Assembly (NCBI GenBank): GCA_030295235.1
Contig: AP026137.1
Span: 496,001 to 560,000, forward strand
DNA: 64,000 nucleotides
Reading direction: 5' to 3'
Source of the DNA: Fistulifera solaris
Taxonomy: Eukaryota > Bacillariophyta > Bacillariophyceae > Naviculales > Stauroneidaceae
Shown: in pieces, positions 48,216 through 57,983 of the stretch
Position numbering within the stretch: the stretch's first letter is position 1
Layout: each line of letters opens with the position of its first letter
Notes under the pieces: generated by a model
The model's database searches: none
Told to the model about the DNA's origin: nothing
What the model saw: only the letters and a program-made list of their open reading frames with translations
Made by a program: the position numbers and the translations under genes

Positions 48216-49901
48216 TCATGAGTCATGATCAATATCCCTCCAACTTGTGGGAAACTCTCTGGCATAAAGGGAACCAAACAATGGCCAGTATCCACACATG
48301 CGGTGCTTATTTACAATGGGAGCATAATAATAGGACGAGATGATTCCGTGTTTGTATCCTTTTGCTTTGTTCTTGTCCGCGTGATAACCTCGGATGCGAT
48401 TGATGTATCCAGAGAAAGTGCTAAACCAACAACCAAAGAACACTCGCGATTGACTTGCCACCAGCTGATCGACCATCCCATAGTACATACTATCCATTCC
48501 GTTAAGTAAATGCGCAAAGTCATCCAAGAAAACAACGTCAAAATGCTTTTGCAGATCCGTGAAGAACGTCTTGTCACGTTCATCGGTGGCTACGTAGACG
48601 ACAGCTCCGTCGCGAATTTCTGGTTGCGACGCGTTGTATATATCGCCGGCGGATATGCGTGTTTTCTGATATTGAAATTCTCCCCGTCGAATGTGAAACG
48701 CATCAAACTCCCGAAGGCCGGTGCGCTGAAAGGCCCGATCCCGCACCGCCTGCACCACACGCGCCGCCGCACACTGGATATGATCGGCATAGCGAAGGTG
48801 ATCTCGAACCAAGCGCTTGTAAAACAAATCATTGTGCCAGTTTTCAAAAAAGAGAAATGCATAAAAGTGGGTCAGTAGACGTCCGCCCAATTTGGGTTTG
48901 CCGTGAAAATGTAGCAGTCGTTGTTGCTGCAGTGTAGCGTTGTAGACACACAGTTGTTCACGTCCAGCGCGCATTTCACTCAGACGATCTATAGAAGGAG
49001 CATCGACTGAAACGGGATGCCCGAAGTATTGTTCTGGTTTGGGAAAGGCCTGACTCTCCATTCTCATGGAAAACCAGGACTCCAATTCTGACTCGCGCGA
49101 CTCATCGTCGGAAAACACGGCGATACACTTCTCTGGATTCCACGAGGGCATCGTGGTCACACTCCGGATCCAGGGTTGATATTCGGTTGCAATCTCGTAC
49201 GACATGCCGTCCCACTGTGTACGATTGTGGGGTGGCCGTAACGAACGTCGTTCTCGATGCAAAAACTCCTCCGTGGAAATGATTTCTAAACCAGCTTGTT
49301 CACGGCTTAGGCGCGAGAGTGGCAGAAAAGTGTCCAGTGTGATAGTGCTCTCCCCTTTCTGGCTTTCCAGTAAGTAATATTCCTGTGACGGGGGCTATAG
49401 GGAGCGGAGAAGTAAGAATAACGAATGAAGAGAAGATACGACAATAAGTAATATCTTCAAACAGACCATGACCAAAGTTCGTCCCATAGCATGCGCCATA
49501 ACAATAACTGTTTCCAGATTCATTCGAACATTATTCCAGCCTCCTTTATCGGGCTCGAACGTCAGGTATTTGGTCGCCTTGCTGTTGTAAAATGGTGATG
49601 TGTAGGCGGCATCCGTCGTAATATCCCTCCAATAGATCATTTCGGACGCATCTTCGGGCCCTCCATACGACAAACAATTCAAATCAGCCAAAGGACTATG
49701 ATCGTCGTTCTCAATATGGTTTTCGAGAATCCATTGATGTTCCGGTAAGAAGAAAGGGAGCCCTAACGGAATGAAACATCCGTGAAACAGCAAGATACAG
49801 ACAAGCGCGACGACCGCCATAGAACCGAGCGGTTTCCGTCGACGCTGCTTTCCCATTTCAGATGAAGCAGCAAATGACTGCCTATTACTGCGATACGTCA
49901 C
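48216..49901 (-). CDS. O-fucosyltransferase-like protein, tandem copy C (2 exons)
   Basis: Third paralogue, with an intact frame. Exon 1 49901-49467 and exon 2 49394-48216 are joined across a 72-bp intron (GTCTGT...TATAG), making 537 residues. Anchor MAVVALVCILLFHGCFIPL; FEPDKGGWNNVR, AHAMGRTLVM, FDAFHIRRGEFQYQKTR, VVYVATDERDKTFF, VFFGCWFSTFSGYI, YAREFPTSWRDI. The RRGD motif reads RRGE here. It lacks every intron found in A and B, including the two around the 6-nt micro-exon, and has one intron of its own after MGRTLVM. This suggests either intron loss in C (for example through an mRNA intermediate) or later gain in the A/B ancestor. It is more divergent than A and B are from each other. Confidence 0.87.
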
Positions 49902-50645: not shown

Positions 50646-53600
50646 ATGAATTTTCGCACAATACTCCTGCTGTTATTTTCCTGTCACTGTCACTATACCG
50701 ATGCCTTTACACCTCGTGCGACACGAGCCATCCACACTGCACTGAGGGAAACGAGTACGAAACCATGGTTCTTTGCTGATAAGCAAGTCGTGAAGAAAGA
50801 AGAAGAGAAAGTCGATGCAGCCATAGAAACAAGATTACTGGGTTCTCAGGAACTGCTCATGGCACCACGTCAATACAGTTTAAGTGATGAAACATTCCCC
50901 GCTATGAATCATGTCGCGTGTGCCATTCTATCGGCTACTCCGGATTTCAACGTCATTCGACAAGCAGTAGACTATGTGATGCAAACACACCCTTTGCTTA
51001 GAGCGAAAATTATTGGAGACGGAGAACCAGAGAAACGCATCGATCTCTTCCAAATGGTGCGAAAGGTACGTCTCTCCAATTGTGTCGGTCGTCGCTAAAA
51101 GACACTCGAGTCGTCTCTCTTTCTCATCATTGGTTTCTGGTAGGGTGATCCGAATCCGATGCAATTTCAAGTGGATTCATCGCTTACCGCGGATGCAGTT
51201 TTGCATATCATCGATACGGATCAGTTGGAAACCAGCTGGCAAACTGCTTTTGCTCGGAATTTAGATGACGGGACGTGGTGTGATGTCACGGTTGGGCCTC
51301 TGTGGAAGCTAGAATTGCACCGAGACACAAAAACGGGAAAATGCGCCCTTTGTTTGCGTTCAATCATGCCATTTCGGATCAAGGTAGTGTCAACCGGCTG
51401 GTCGACCAGATTTTGCGTAAAGTTGTCGTGCTGGAGAAAGGCGAATCCCTGCCCCTGCAGCCGCAACGTATACCCGTCGCATTGGAAGATTCCGTCTTGG
51501 GTATGCAACAGAGATGGTCGGATGTTACAACAAATGGGGTGTCGGTCGACACCATTCAGTACGTTGCCAGTAAGGCGGCGGAGGGATTGCGCAATCCGGT
51601 TATTCTCCCCGAATCGTCATCATCGAACAGCGGGAACCCACTGGGTGCACTCACGATCATTTCCGGACAAACCGCTGGAGGAATGGATACCGAACAACGA
51701 AAATCGACGGTACAATTTCGGTCGCTGTCTCCGAGTTCCACATCAGCGTTGTTGTCTCAGTGCCGCGTCAATAATGTATCGGTCACCAATCTTTTGACAG
51801 CGGCCGTTACCTTGACCGCAACGGATTTCATCGGAGACGGGATTGATACAAGCAGCGAGCGTAACTACAAAATATTACAGTCCATGGATATGCGTCGTTT
51901 TGGACAACAACTTGATAAGGGCGAATCGGTGGCGTGTATGGCTGGTTCCATGGATTTGATGCACGGACCTTTACCGGATCGTTCCGGAGAACGAGTAAGA
52001 ACGGGTCAAGATACTGAACTAGTATGGAAATTGGCCAAGGAAGGAAAAGAGCAGACAACACAGTTCATTGACAAAGGAGGACCCGAGCAAGCGGTTCGAG
52101 TGTTCGACTTCGCCATGTCTATCGCAGATTTGAACAATTTAGTCTACTTAACAGCGCAATCCAAAGACACAAAAGGCAGAGCATATAGTGCTGGAATAGC
52201 TAACATCGGTGTATTCGAAAGCCAATCTGCATTTGGTACCAAAGGGGAAACTTTGAAGAGTAAACACGGAAGATATCAAGTGGAAAATATGTTCTTTGCC
52301 ACCTCGCATGTGCAATCGGGATGCCTGTACCAAGTATCATGTCTGACGGTCGATGGTAAATTGGAGCTGACATTCCACCCAGTTTCTCCCATTGTAAGCG
52401 AAGAGACAAACCAGAAATTCGCCGATACGTTTGTGGAACTACTCGAAGTAGTTGCTGGCACGAAAAGTCCGGTGTCCATCGACTCCGCCAGCAGCAAGAT
52501 GCCGACTCTTCCTAAGAATCTCCTCACTACAGTTGCTGCAGTGGTCGGAATTGGTTCTGTGTTGAGTCACTCAGGTGCTTGGGTTGATTTCTTCCGCTCC
52601 GTGTTAGAAATGAAAGCCAACATTGCCGATCCTGCTGACTTTTGGGCCGCTATCAACTTCTGGATCTTCTTCGCGGTCGGCCACCCTCTTTTACAACCAA
52701 TTTTGTATCTGAGTGATGTTCTCCATGGTAGTCCGGGTCCCCTGGTTGGAAATCTAGTTCCGTTTTCTTTCTTGGCGGGGAATGCGGTGGTTATTTTCAC
52801 CATCATGAAATTCAAAGATGTAAGTTGGATTTGTACACCCAAAGCATTCGTTAGCTCCATTAACTTAATTTGACCCCTGCGGTTTTGCAGCTACGAAACG
52901 CGTTGAACATTGCCGCACTGGCCGCATTCTTCTCCTACGTGGGTGCTGGTTTGGACGGAACTGCGGGACTTGGAGACTTTAACCTTGCTCTAGATGATAA
53001 TTACAACGGCCAGATCGTGAAAGGATGTCCCGCATACGAGGACGTTCGACAGCCCAGTATGGACAACTTTGATCTGAACAAGTACCAAGGACTGTGGTAC
53101 GAGCAGAAGTTCCACGATTGGACACAATTCAAAGAGGTCTACGATACTTCTCTCGATATCAGGGTGAGTAGATTCCAAGCTCTCATTGTTCTTCACTTAT
53201 GGTTCAATGGCTCAAACACTTTAAATTCGCAGTTAACGGAAGGAGGCAAGGGATGGGTGGATGACTTTGGCGTGAAAGGACCCGCTCCGGACGCTGCACC
53301 CCTTTCTTGGGACAAAAGTCCCGTAGCCAATGGCGCGCATTACTTTTTGTTTGGACGCGTCGACGAGCGTGACCCTCCCGGAATATTACGAGAAAAAGGA
53401 TTTGGTGTCGAGTTTCCCAATTACATTGTGGATGTAAAGAAAGATCCTAAAACCGGAGAATACACGGAATCGATACAATTCCAGTGCCTGGAACGGGGCG
53501 GAGTTCGGGTGTTTGAAGGTATCAATTTCATGTCACGCAACAAGGTCATGACCGACGAAGAACTGATGGCTATGCATGCTCGAGCTGAAAAAGCGGGTAT

Positions 53601-53763
53601 GTATCCCTACGGAGCCAGTCCGGAGCAGATGCACCGGGTAGCACAGAGACCGGAGAATGCTCCCGCTATTGATAATAGCTGGCAAGCCATGTGGAGAGCG
53701 ATTGGTTTGGACAAATTGCTAGAGTTGCTCACCGAGTCAATTGAGGACGGCGGACGCGACTAA
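50646..53763 (+). CDS. Plastid-directed condensation-fold acyltransferase fused to a VDE-type lipocalin
   Basis: Four exons: 50646-51065, 51144-52819, 52891-53163 and 53233-53763 (introns 78, 71 and 69 bp; the last is in frame), about 966 residues. The N-terminus MNFRTILLLLFSCHCHYTDA|FTPR is a diatom plastid bipartite signal. Residues about 75-570 resemble the condensation/alcohol acyltransferase fold, with FNHAISDQGSVNRLVDQIL carrying the HxxxD motif. About four hydrophobic segments follow (FWAAINFWIFFAVGHPLLQP; FSFLAGNAVVIFTIMKF). From about 745 comes a lipocalin like that of violaxanthin de-epoxidase (CPAYEDV, YQGLWYEQKFHDW, then FPNYIVDVKKD). One frame break lies at T3 51349-51351. Acylation of a plastid lipid or carotenoid is inferred. 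Confidence 0.78.
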
Positions 53764-54481: not shown

Positions 54482-57400
54482 ATGGCGGCGGACAACGATG
54501 CGGATAACAATCGACACAGCCAGCCTCTTTTGTTTTCCGAACAAAAGCAAGTCTTTGCCAAAATTGAGCTGTTGCAACGCAGCCAAGACGATTTGTCAGC
54601 AGCGGCACAAGAAATCCGTCATATTCTCGACAAGTATCTCGAGTGCCCTACACTGCTGGACCCGTCCTTGCCGAAATTAGTAGAATGCTTAAGTCGAGGG
54701 TATCTTCAACGCCCGCCCAATGAAGCAAACTCTGCCTCTATGCTGTCGATCTTGTACTTACTTTCAAAAGTACGGGGATGGAAACACATCGTACGCTTTT
54801 TTACCGGCGCATAATGAGCACATTCTGATTGTATGGGAAGCCTTGCAAACGAATCGGTCGTCTTGGGAATCGATTTATATTCTGTGGCATTGGATGGCGG
54901 TATTGAGTCTTGTACCCTTCGATGTACAAGTCATGGTGGCGGAAGAACATACCTGGTTGTCTCAAATGCTCGCCTTGGCACGTCAACAGTGTCACGACGC
55001 GGGACCGACGCGCGAGGCTGCTGTGATTTGTGTGGCTTCGTGGTTGTCTCGTGCGGATGTCTGGTCGATGCAGTGGCCCGTGTACGAGGTGTATGCGCAA
55101 CAAATCATTACACAGTATACAAGTAAAAGCCACACGAATTCGTTATTTCCACTCTTGGGAGTTCTCAAAGTTCTCAACACGATGCTCAAAACCAGTCGCA
55201 CCGATCGGGAACAGCTGGTGCAACACTTTTGCCCTTTTGGGAGCCATTATGGAACATTGGGGAACAGCAAAAAGATCTATTAGTGACGCATCAATTGATC
55301 AAGTGGTGGGCACGCATGGCGGCGGCGCATTTGCCTCCGCGGATTGCGCCGTGGCGGTATCAACGGGGAAGCGTCTTTTATTCGTGTCGTCCGACACGAC
55401 CAGCGAGGCACGTAACGACGAAAGTATCGAAAACGAAAGGGAAACAATATGGAAGGTTCCAGATTTAGTAGAAGATGCCATGGGTCGCATTCTGTTTGCG
55501 TTGCGAAATTCCTCTACCGTTGTTCGGTGGTCGGCGGCCAAAGGAGTGGGTCGTCTCACGGAAAGACTGCCAGCTCTTTGCGCAGATGATGTGGTGGACG
55601 CATTGTTGGAGACAATAGAAGAAGAGTCAGACGATGATAAAGTGTGGCACGGAACTTGCTTGGCTTTAGCAGAATTGGCGCGTCGTGGGTTACTCTTGCC
55701 CCACCGACTCGAAGAAGTTGTTCCATTTGTCATACGGGCGATCCATTTTGATGCAAGTCCGCCGTCATCATCATCCACAGCAACTTCAAGTGTGGGAGCT
55801 CATGTCCGCGATGCTGCTTGTTATACGTATTGGGCATTTGGAAGGGCTTTTGACCCAAGTGTATTACGGCCTTTCTTACGGGAGCTGAATCACGCGGCTG
55901 TTGTCACGAGCTTGCTCGATCGTGAGGTCAATTGTCGGCGAGCCGCTAGTGCTGCATTTCAAGAAGTTGCAGGTCGTCAGAAAGGCAATGTGCCCCACGG
56001 GATCGACATTTTGACAACGGCCGATTTTTTCTCTTTAGGAAACCGGACAAACTCGTATACAAAGATCGCCTGCTCTGTTGCAGCTTACGTTGAATACAGA
56101 AAACCCATCATCAACCATCTTCACCGAGAAAAGCTTTTCCACTGGGATATTTCCATCCGGACACTGGCTGCTAATACTCTTGGTCGAATTGTGCCACTTG
56201 ATGCAAGCTATTTCTGCTCGATCGTTTTGCCAGATCTGCTGGAAAATTCCCTTGATATGAAGAATTTGCACGTGCGTCATGGTGCTGTGATTGGAGTCGC
56301 GGAAATAACATTTGCTCTCTCGACAAACGGCAGCCTCTCCCAAATCTCTAGTAAACACATGGCTGCACTAAAAGGCTTAGTCGCGAGCATTGAAAAGAAA
56401 AGGCTCTATCGAGGACGCGGGGGAGAAATCATGCGGTCAGCTGTTTGCCAGTTGGTGAAATGCATTTCACAGTCTCGAATAGATCTATCGGTGAAAGAGC
56501 AAGTTCAGTTGCTGGATTCTGTGGATGCGTGCATCCCTCACCCATCCGAAAGTATTCAAAACGATGCCTGCCAAGCTCTCCATCAACTACTGATCGCTTA
56601 TTTCCCAGTAAGCGAACATGGACCCTCCGACAGGCTACAGAATCGTGTGGTCGGGAAATTTACTCATACATGTTCATCGAGCGAAAATCCAGCGGCTACC
56701 AGAGGCTATGCTCTTGCACTGGGTTATGTACCCGCAAAACTCGTCGCTACCTCTGATGCAGTCTTAAACTGTGTCATTTCTTGTCTTATTGAGTCTTCCA
56801 AGCACACGAGCCTTGTTGGAAGTGAAGGCGACGCCGAATCTCGAAGAAATGCGCTTTTCTCTCTTCGTCGGATAGCGACGTGGGCATTGACTCCTCGCGA
56901 CACATCAGAAACTTCATATCCCGTGGTCTCTATGGGTGTAGAATTGGTATTTCAAATTTTGGAAGCCTTTTCTTGTGCTTTGAATGATTACAAAACTGAT
57001 CGCAGAGGCGATGTAGGTTCCTGGTGCCGCATGGCTGCGATCGATGGGATAGTAGACGTACTATTGTGCTCCAGCGACAACGCTGAGCTCGCCGGTCGTT
57101 TGTCACATGACCATGCTACAAGATTAGTGGCAGCCATTTTGAAGCAGCTTGGGGAAAGACTGGATGTGGTTCGCAAGTGTGCTGGTGACGGACTAGCGAG
57201 AATCCTCATGCATGAACCATATATTTCCGGAATTGATTTTAGAAGCGAGCTGCAACATGCTTTAGGGGTGGGAATAGCGCCTCCAAATTGGGCCGATTCC
57301 TCGCTGACATTCGATCGTTTGAAGGATGTGATTTCAATACAAAATGTTCCTGACGTTTACATCGATAGCGTTCTTTCCGGACTTATTGTGAGTGTTGGCG

Positions 57401-57983
57401 GTCTTACGGAAGCCGTCAGCAAACACGCATTCGCTTCTCTTTACAATGGACAAGAGAAGGCGACGAGGGTCGACGATTTAAACTGTGGGGGCTCATAAAC
57501 AACCTACTCGCACAGAATCGAGGCACGCGCCGAGTCACTCTCCCAGCTCTGAAAACGATGTCAAAACTTATTTCACGGCAATGTTTCGATGACATTATAC
57601 AAAGTCACAATACAGTATCAGATCTACACGTTTTCATTCATATTGAAGGACAATCTAGTAAGGATATGCAAACACTTTTTGCGCTGGTGGATGTATCTGT
57701 GTCACTCCTTCATTCTTCAAATACTGCAGCGTCTACTTTACAGCAGCAATTGCAATTCTTGCTCCAGATGTTGATTCATCAATATCCGCGAATAAGATCA
57801 TATACTGCAGATCAGTTGTACGTCTTCCTCCTGGAAGGACAAATTCCAAATGGCAAAATCGCAGCACGTTGTCAGGATATAGTGTTGAACACATGTTGGG
57901 CAACGCAGGATGTTGCTGATTTGAAAGTTGTTTTGACCGAACTGCATCAGTTGCTTGACATTCAAGAAAATACCGAGAACTAG
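54482..57983 (+). CDS. TBCD: Tubulin-specific chaperone D (tubulin-folding cofactor D)
   Basis: A HEAT/ARM-repeat protein that binds beta-tubulin after CCT release and works with cofactors C and E to form the alpha/beta dimer. About 1165 residues, the family size. Marks: LYLLSKVRGWKHIVRF, IYILWHWMAVLSLVPFD, LLVTHQLIKWWARM, PPRIAPWRYQRG, NSSTVVRWSAAKGVGRL, AFDPSVLRPFL, NCRRAASAAFQEVAGRQ, then LDVVRKCAGDGLARIL and the C-terminal RRVTLPALKTMSKLI. The gene crosses four one-base frame changes: the T6 run 54797-54802, and runs near 55230, 55365 and 57470. The family match continues in the new frame each time. I start at the ATG 54482. No introns were needed. Confidence 0.87.

Follow-up and report, generated by a model that had tools for sequence, protein, structure and literature searches.

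The 64,000-nucleotide window analyzed here (positions 496,001 to 560,000 of contig AP026137.1 of the diatom Fistulifera solaris) carries a gene whose product joins an acyltransferase domain of the condensation fold, a block of membrane helices and a C-terminal lipocalin. The fusion, both folds, the preserved HxxxD catalytic motif, and the conservation of the whole in diatoms, a haptophyte and a pelagophyte were evident from sequence comparisons and predicted structures. As to its role, we tentatively propose, giving the idea a little less than an even chance, that the protein is a membrane-bound xanthophyll O-acyltransferase of the plastid, and most likely the one that performs the acetylation in the fucoxanthin pathway of the diatom/haptophyte type. 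Diatoms and haptophytes harvest light with fucoxanthin as a main pigment, and in the available excerpts of reviews its pathway contains two steps to which no enzyme is assigned. A conserved, apparently plastid-targeted acyltransferase with its own lipocalin is a concrete candidate gene.

A conserved fusion of acyltransferase, membrane helices and lipocalin

Three protein searches provided 213 relatives (the best 120 of 236, all 96, and the best 120 of 284 matches, with about 8,000 candidates sharing most words scored per search), many of which are gene-caller fragments that end at introns. Residues in the motif region together with coverage of the lipocalin start were present in 132 of the 213, and the membrane block was found in every one of the 166 relatives that cover the lipocalin start. 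The order acyltransferase-membrane block-lipocalin is far beyond chance. The first-pass annotation had read the gene as a single fused protein, and the recurrence of this order corroborates it, the more so as eight full-length members are transcript-derived by name (P0015, P0018, P0020, P0028, P0033, P0040, P0061 and P0068).

At least 12 named diatom entries of 930-1040 amino acids (aa) were observed among the matches listed. They belong to Amphora coffeaeformis, Nitzschia inconspicua, Stephanocyclus meneghinianus, Fragilariopsis cylindrus, Ditylum brightwellii (whose entry ends early at the C-terminus), taxid 265537 (Entomoneis) and taxid 186022 (Thalassionema frauenfeldii), together with entries labelled 'Atthey' (Attheya), 'Helic' (Helicotheca) and 'Odontel' (Odontella), and one CCRYP and one Psemu1 model, tags that we take to stand for Cyclotella and Pseudo-nitzschia, respectively. 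Two diatom entries are shorter, one from a Bacillariaceae metagenome-assembled genome (MAG; 808 aa) and one labelled 'Chaeto' (415 aa). A search with a doubled query returned 96 matches no shorter than about 890 aa. Of these, 83 had already been found and 13 were new, among the latter the distant relatives P0124-P0133. Two distant relatives are named, from the haptophyte Diacronema lutheri and the pelagophyte Pelagophyceae sp. CCMP2097, and both present the same domain order as the diatom proteins. A midpoint-rooted tree of 23 proteins placed all diatom rows in one group, with P0189 (a long branch) at its base and P0124 next, and the Diacronema and pelagophyte-like rows on the other side. P0189, a 664-aa model without the N-terminal half of the acyltransferase, comes perhaps from a sister lineage of the diatoms. 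Scans with two short patterns gave 16 stretches in bacterial and archaeal genomes and 42 in viral contigs, with no relative confirmed in either set, and a 55-residue query from the presequence gave no match.

The acyltransferase domain spans approximately positions 50835..52490 of the forward strand, across intron 1. Its assignment as condensation/alcohol-acyltransferase-like, made from the letters alone, was upheld by structural comparison, in which the two-lobed condensation fold was found with matches over about 370-440 residues at 10-19% identity. The HxxxD motif, NHAISDQ at 51362..51382 (+ strand), is intact as previously claimed; its H and D are kept in 166 of the 167 aligned relatives covering both columns, and the N-terminus of the sole exception, P0179, is unrelated. 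In the model of P0009 the motif lies between a strand (residues 215-222) and a helix (228-246). The domain would carry out acyl transfer.

Downstream, a membrane block (approximately 52508..52970, + strand, across intron 2) separates the two domains. It comprises four strongly hydrophobic helices, against about four segments noticed originally, and one amphipathic helix. The lipocalin domain follows at approximately 53002..53550 (+ strand, across intron 3), and the earlier identification of a lipocalin was also right: a calycin barrel with the G-x-W motif (YQGLWYE) was found. The domain may bind a small hydrophobic ligand. Two cysteines of this domain are invariant (70/70 and 35/35 rows), and across all 213 relatives they are kept in 168/173 and 138/148 covering rows, many of these from incomplete models.

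A different outcome was obtained for the proposed closeness to the lipocalin core of violaxanthin de-epoxidase (VDE), since no sequence link was found and other lipocalins rank above VDE. Neither the window read-through (E up to 1) nor P0009, P0125, P0128, P0203 or P0124 (E up to 0.05) was matched by PF07137, the Pfam model of the VDE family, which finds 13 stretches elsewhere in the same genome. An hhalign comparison of the lipocalin with VDE returned a probability of 0.8%, with an alignment outside the lipocalin core and a VDE alignment of five rows, four of them partial. In the structural ranking VDE stood below several other lipocalins; by VIA-align, used as a second look at the Foldseek matches, VDE and the best lipocalins are about 2 Z units apart, and adjacent rows tie. 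Furthermore, the Cys-rich N-terminal domain of the VDE family is not present, the acyltransferase and the membrane helices preceding the lipocalin instead. Membership of the VDE family was rejected on the null results with PF07137.

Probable plastid targeting and the proposed role in xanthophyll acylation

A signal-peptide-like segment (50646..50705, + strand), delimited by sequence and a crude rule, ends in TDA; the next residue is Phe, followed by TPR, which presumably constitutes an ASAFAP-type motif. The rule (hydrophobic stretch, small-x-small, F) was applied to relatives with at least 45 residues before the first conserved box. The plastid signal described in the first-pass annotation was supported to this extent: a plastid-type presequence was seen in the window copy and, by the rule, in 78 of the 111 relatives. 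Of the other 33, several visibly have AF but fall under the hydropathy cut and some have no clear signal segment. The Phe after the predicted cleavage site in these 78 proteins suggests plastid import.

As regards the pathway, excerpts of two reviews (PMC11857680, PMC11880063) describe the enzyme acetylating allenoxanthin to haptoxanthin as unidentified, in agreement with what had been stated originally, and likewise the neoxanthin dehydratase; according to the accessible part of a third paper (PMC12843257) the stages of the pathway have not all been identified. Among the matches listed from open-access papers, none named an algal acetyltransferase for fucoxanthin or for xanthophylls, and none described an acyltransferase-lipocalin fusion; most subscription papers and all preprints lie outside this scope, and a recent report could exist. 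The family was seen in diatoms, Diacronema lutheri and Pelagophyceae sp. CCMP2097, which agrees with the expectation that it occurs in fucoxanthin-making lineages. The acetylase is the simplest assignment, with the lipocalin presenting the xanthophyll. In this mechanism, the presequence would direct the protein to the plastid and the membrane block would serve as an anchor; the lipocalin would draw the hydrophobic xanthophyll out of the membrane and bring its hydroxyl to the HxxxD motif, whose His would act as base, and allenoxanthin plus acetyl-CoA would give haptoxanthin. It should be noted that the plastid location, the acyl transfer, the acetyl-CoA donor, the xanthophyll acceptor and the hand-over from domain to domain are what we infer.

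Several observations weigh against this proposal. At the level of the domain models, the window read-through, P0009, P0124 and P0125 did not reach the cut-offs of PF00668, PF07247 and PF16911 in Pfam. Of the Pfam check suggested at the outset, the VDE half gave no match and the acyltransferase half gave scores mostly below cut-off, with AATase above it in P0128 (22.5 vs 22) and P0058 (24 vs 22). Apart from these counterpoints, a search of the 51.7-Mb Fistulifera genome with the Pfam Condensation model gave no match, though the gene is present there; searches against PDB sequences returned short matches only, and NCBIfam no useful name. Also against the proposal, the top structural match, 8s6l, bears the title of a dehydratase, with acyltransferase given as the name of the molecule. 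The conserved cysteine pair might indicate an oxidizing compartment, which would conflict with a stromal location should the two domains face the same side. Neither of the two flanking genes, the only neighbors examined, is a carotenoid gene. The distribution raises further doubts: brown algae, chrysophytes and raphidophytes also make fucoxanthin and are not named among the matches listed, and neither is Phaeodactylum tricornutum, the species in which the pathway was elucidated. However, Fistulifera itself is not named there either, so these lists, most of whose entries bear no species label, cannot show absence. Beyond diatoms, the haptophyte and the pelagophyte they name no lineage, and no brown alga, dinoflagellate or eustigmatophyte in particular, with no control that those proteomes, or those of euglenids, were searchable.

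Another point against the acetylase is that conservation is higher in the lipocalin than in the catalytic domain, which could mean that catalysis is not the main task. Eight of the ten distant relatives were compared with P0009: they are 63-70% identical to it over the lipocalin, whereas the figure is 33-36% over the acyltransferase, 27-43% over the membrane block and 41-50% over the C-terminal helices. This difference favors a carrier or assembly factor, whose lipocalin would hand fucoxanthin or a different pigment over to light-harvesting proteins with the acyltransferase fold as scaffold; the HxxxD motif is nevertheless kept in 166 of 167 relatives, and a mere scaffold should have lost it somewhere, so we regard such a role as quite improbable. 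The strength with which the lipocalin has been conserved from diatoms to distant relatives also suggests a single specific ligand and argues against a plastid lipid acyltransferase, in which a galactolipid, a sulfolipid, a sterol or a free alcohol (phytol) would be presented and a fatty acyl ester formed. Moreover, the common plastid lipids also occur in plants and green algae, and no relative from these groups is named among the matches listed. We consider a lipid substrate unlikely, but it deserves serious attention.

The acetylase must also be weighed against another step of xanthophyll metabolism. As acetylated fucoxanthin and diadinoxanthin occur together in diatoms and haptophytes, finding the gene in these groups cannot tell which pigment step is involved, and the diadinoxanthin (Dd) synthase is described as still unknown in the excerpt available of PMC12449192. 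The protein could act at that step by acylating the tertiary hydroxyl of the allenic ring of neoxanthin; the ester would leave by elimination to give the acetylenic ring, and the product would be ester-free. Such acyl activation and elimination is chemically possible and the lineages found so far to carry the gene fit it equally, but the mechanism is drawn from chemical reasoning, the word 'dehydratase' comes only from the PDB title of 8s6l, and euglenophytes and xanthophytes, which make diadinoxanthin but no fucoxanthin, are not named among the matches listed (a result with no control). A search for an AzeD paper found none among the best 10 of 1,929 literature matches. This route seems to us a doubtful one. 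We are slightly more skeptical of the full claim that this family supplies the missing diadinoxanthin synthase, with the acyltransferase fold working as a dehydratase that makes a carbon-carbon triple bond while the lipocalin holds the carotenoid. Acylation at position 19' of fucoxanthin was discarded as a common role, as diatoms have the gene and are not listed with fatty-acylated fucoxanthin.

Gene structure, homoeologous copy and genomic setting

On the forward strand the gene starts with the ATG at 50646 and its stop codon ends at 53763, exactly as originally delimited, and its four exons are joined by three GT-AG introns (51066-51143, 52820-52890 and 53164-53232). Exon 1 (50646..51065) carries the start codon, the presequence and the beginning of the acyltransferase domain, with the GT donor at 51066; exon 2 (51144..52819) encodes the bulk of that domain and the first membrane helices; exon 3 (52891..53163) the end of the membrane block and the start of the lipocalin (CPAYEDV, YQGLWYE); and exon 4 (53233..53763) the remaining lipocalin, the conserved C-terminal helices ending in SIEDGG, and the stop codon. 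The motifs NHAISDQ, CPAYEDV and YQGLWYEQKFHDW are all found in the window sequence.

The claim of a single spliced reading frame requires one correction. The splicing is as proposed, but compared with intact copies exon 2 is broken by one base at about 51,350 (within 51340-51370), immediately 5' of the HxxxD motif. The homoeologous copy on contig C18 (89% DNA identity) and P0058, which is 99% identical to the window copy, read through this site; the C18 copy has its own, different frame break in the last exon. The dN/dS between window and C18 copies is 0.09 over 954 aligned codons, with dN inflated by a disturbed stretch of the C18 copy in exon 4. By this value both copies appear to be functional genes, and assembly errors are the more likely, though not a proven, cause of the breaks. 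The two breaks would otherwise be the natural argument for a decayed copy or for two misjoined separate genes, an explanation to which we give hardly any credence given that haptophyte and pelagophyte proteins have the same order. Decay was rejected on the dN/dS value, and misjoining on the eight transcript-derived proteins, which span both domains and contradict two separate transcripts.

The flanking genes are an O-fucosyltransferase-like gene of the O-FucT family (PF10250) upstream (48216-49394, minus strand) and, on the downstream side, one for tubulin folding cofactor D (55027-57498, + strand); a near-identical tubulin folding cofactor D frame also lies downstream of the C18 homoeolog. 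The gene is located on the paired contigs C17/C18, and the VDE-family stretches on C3/C4, C7/C8 and C13/C14, a pattern as in an allodiploid genome. For F. solaris, 42 homoeologous chromosome pairs are given in the part of PMC5935921 available. With an RNP method, both homoeologs of a different xanthophyll gene have been edited in this species (PMC13276009).

Comparison with known acyltransferases and lipocalins

Among the proteins of the pathway, CRTISO5, ZEP1 and VDL2 are given other steps, and none the acetylation, in the review excerpts; they would belong to one pathway with the protein if the acetylase proposal holds. VDE, VDL1 and VDL2 differ from it in their match to PF07137, their Cys-rich domain and their profile similarity, none of which was found here. 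Coesel et al. 2008 (PMC2483416) described the diatom VDE, VDL and VDR lipocalins, and the word 'acyltransferase' does not appear in the portion of its text available. On the enzymatic side, the fold and the HxxxD motif are common to PapA5, the trichothecene 15-O-acetyltransferase TRI3, the MEL acyltransferase, the alcohol acetyltransferases of PF07247 and the condensation domains of NRPS. To our knowledge, none of these condensation-type enzymes carries membrane helices and a lipocalin in the same chain. The lipocalins ApoD, Blc, sandercyanin and beta-crustacyanin share about 12-17% identity with the C-terminal domain, which here is fused to a membrane acyltransferase. The protein would be a clear example of a transferase with a lipocalin as an integral part.
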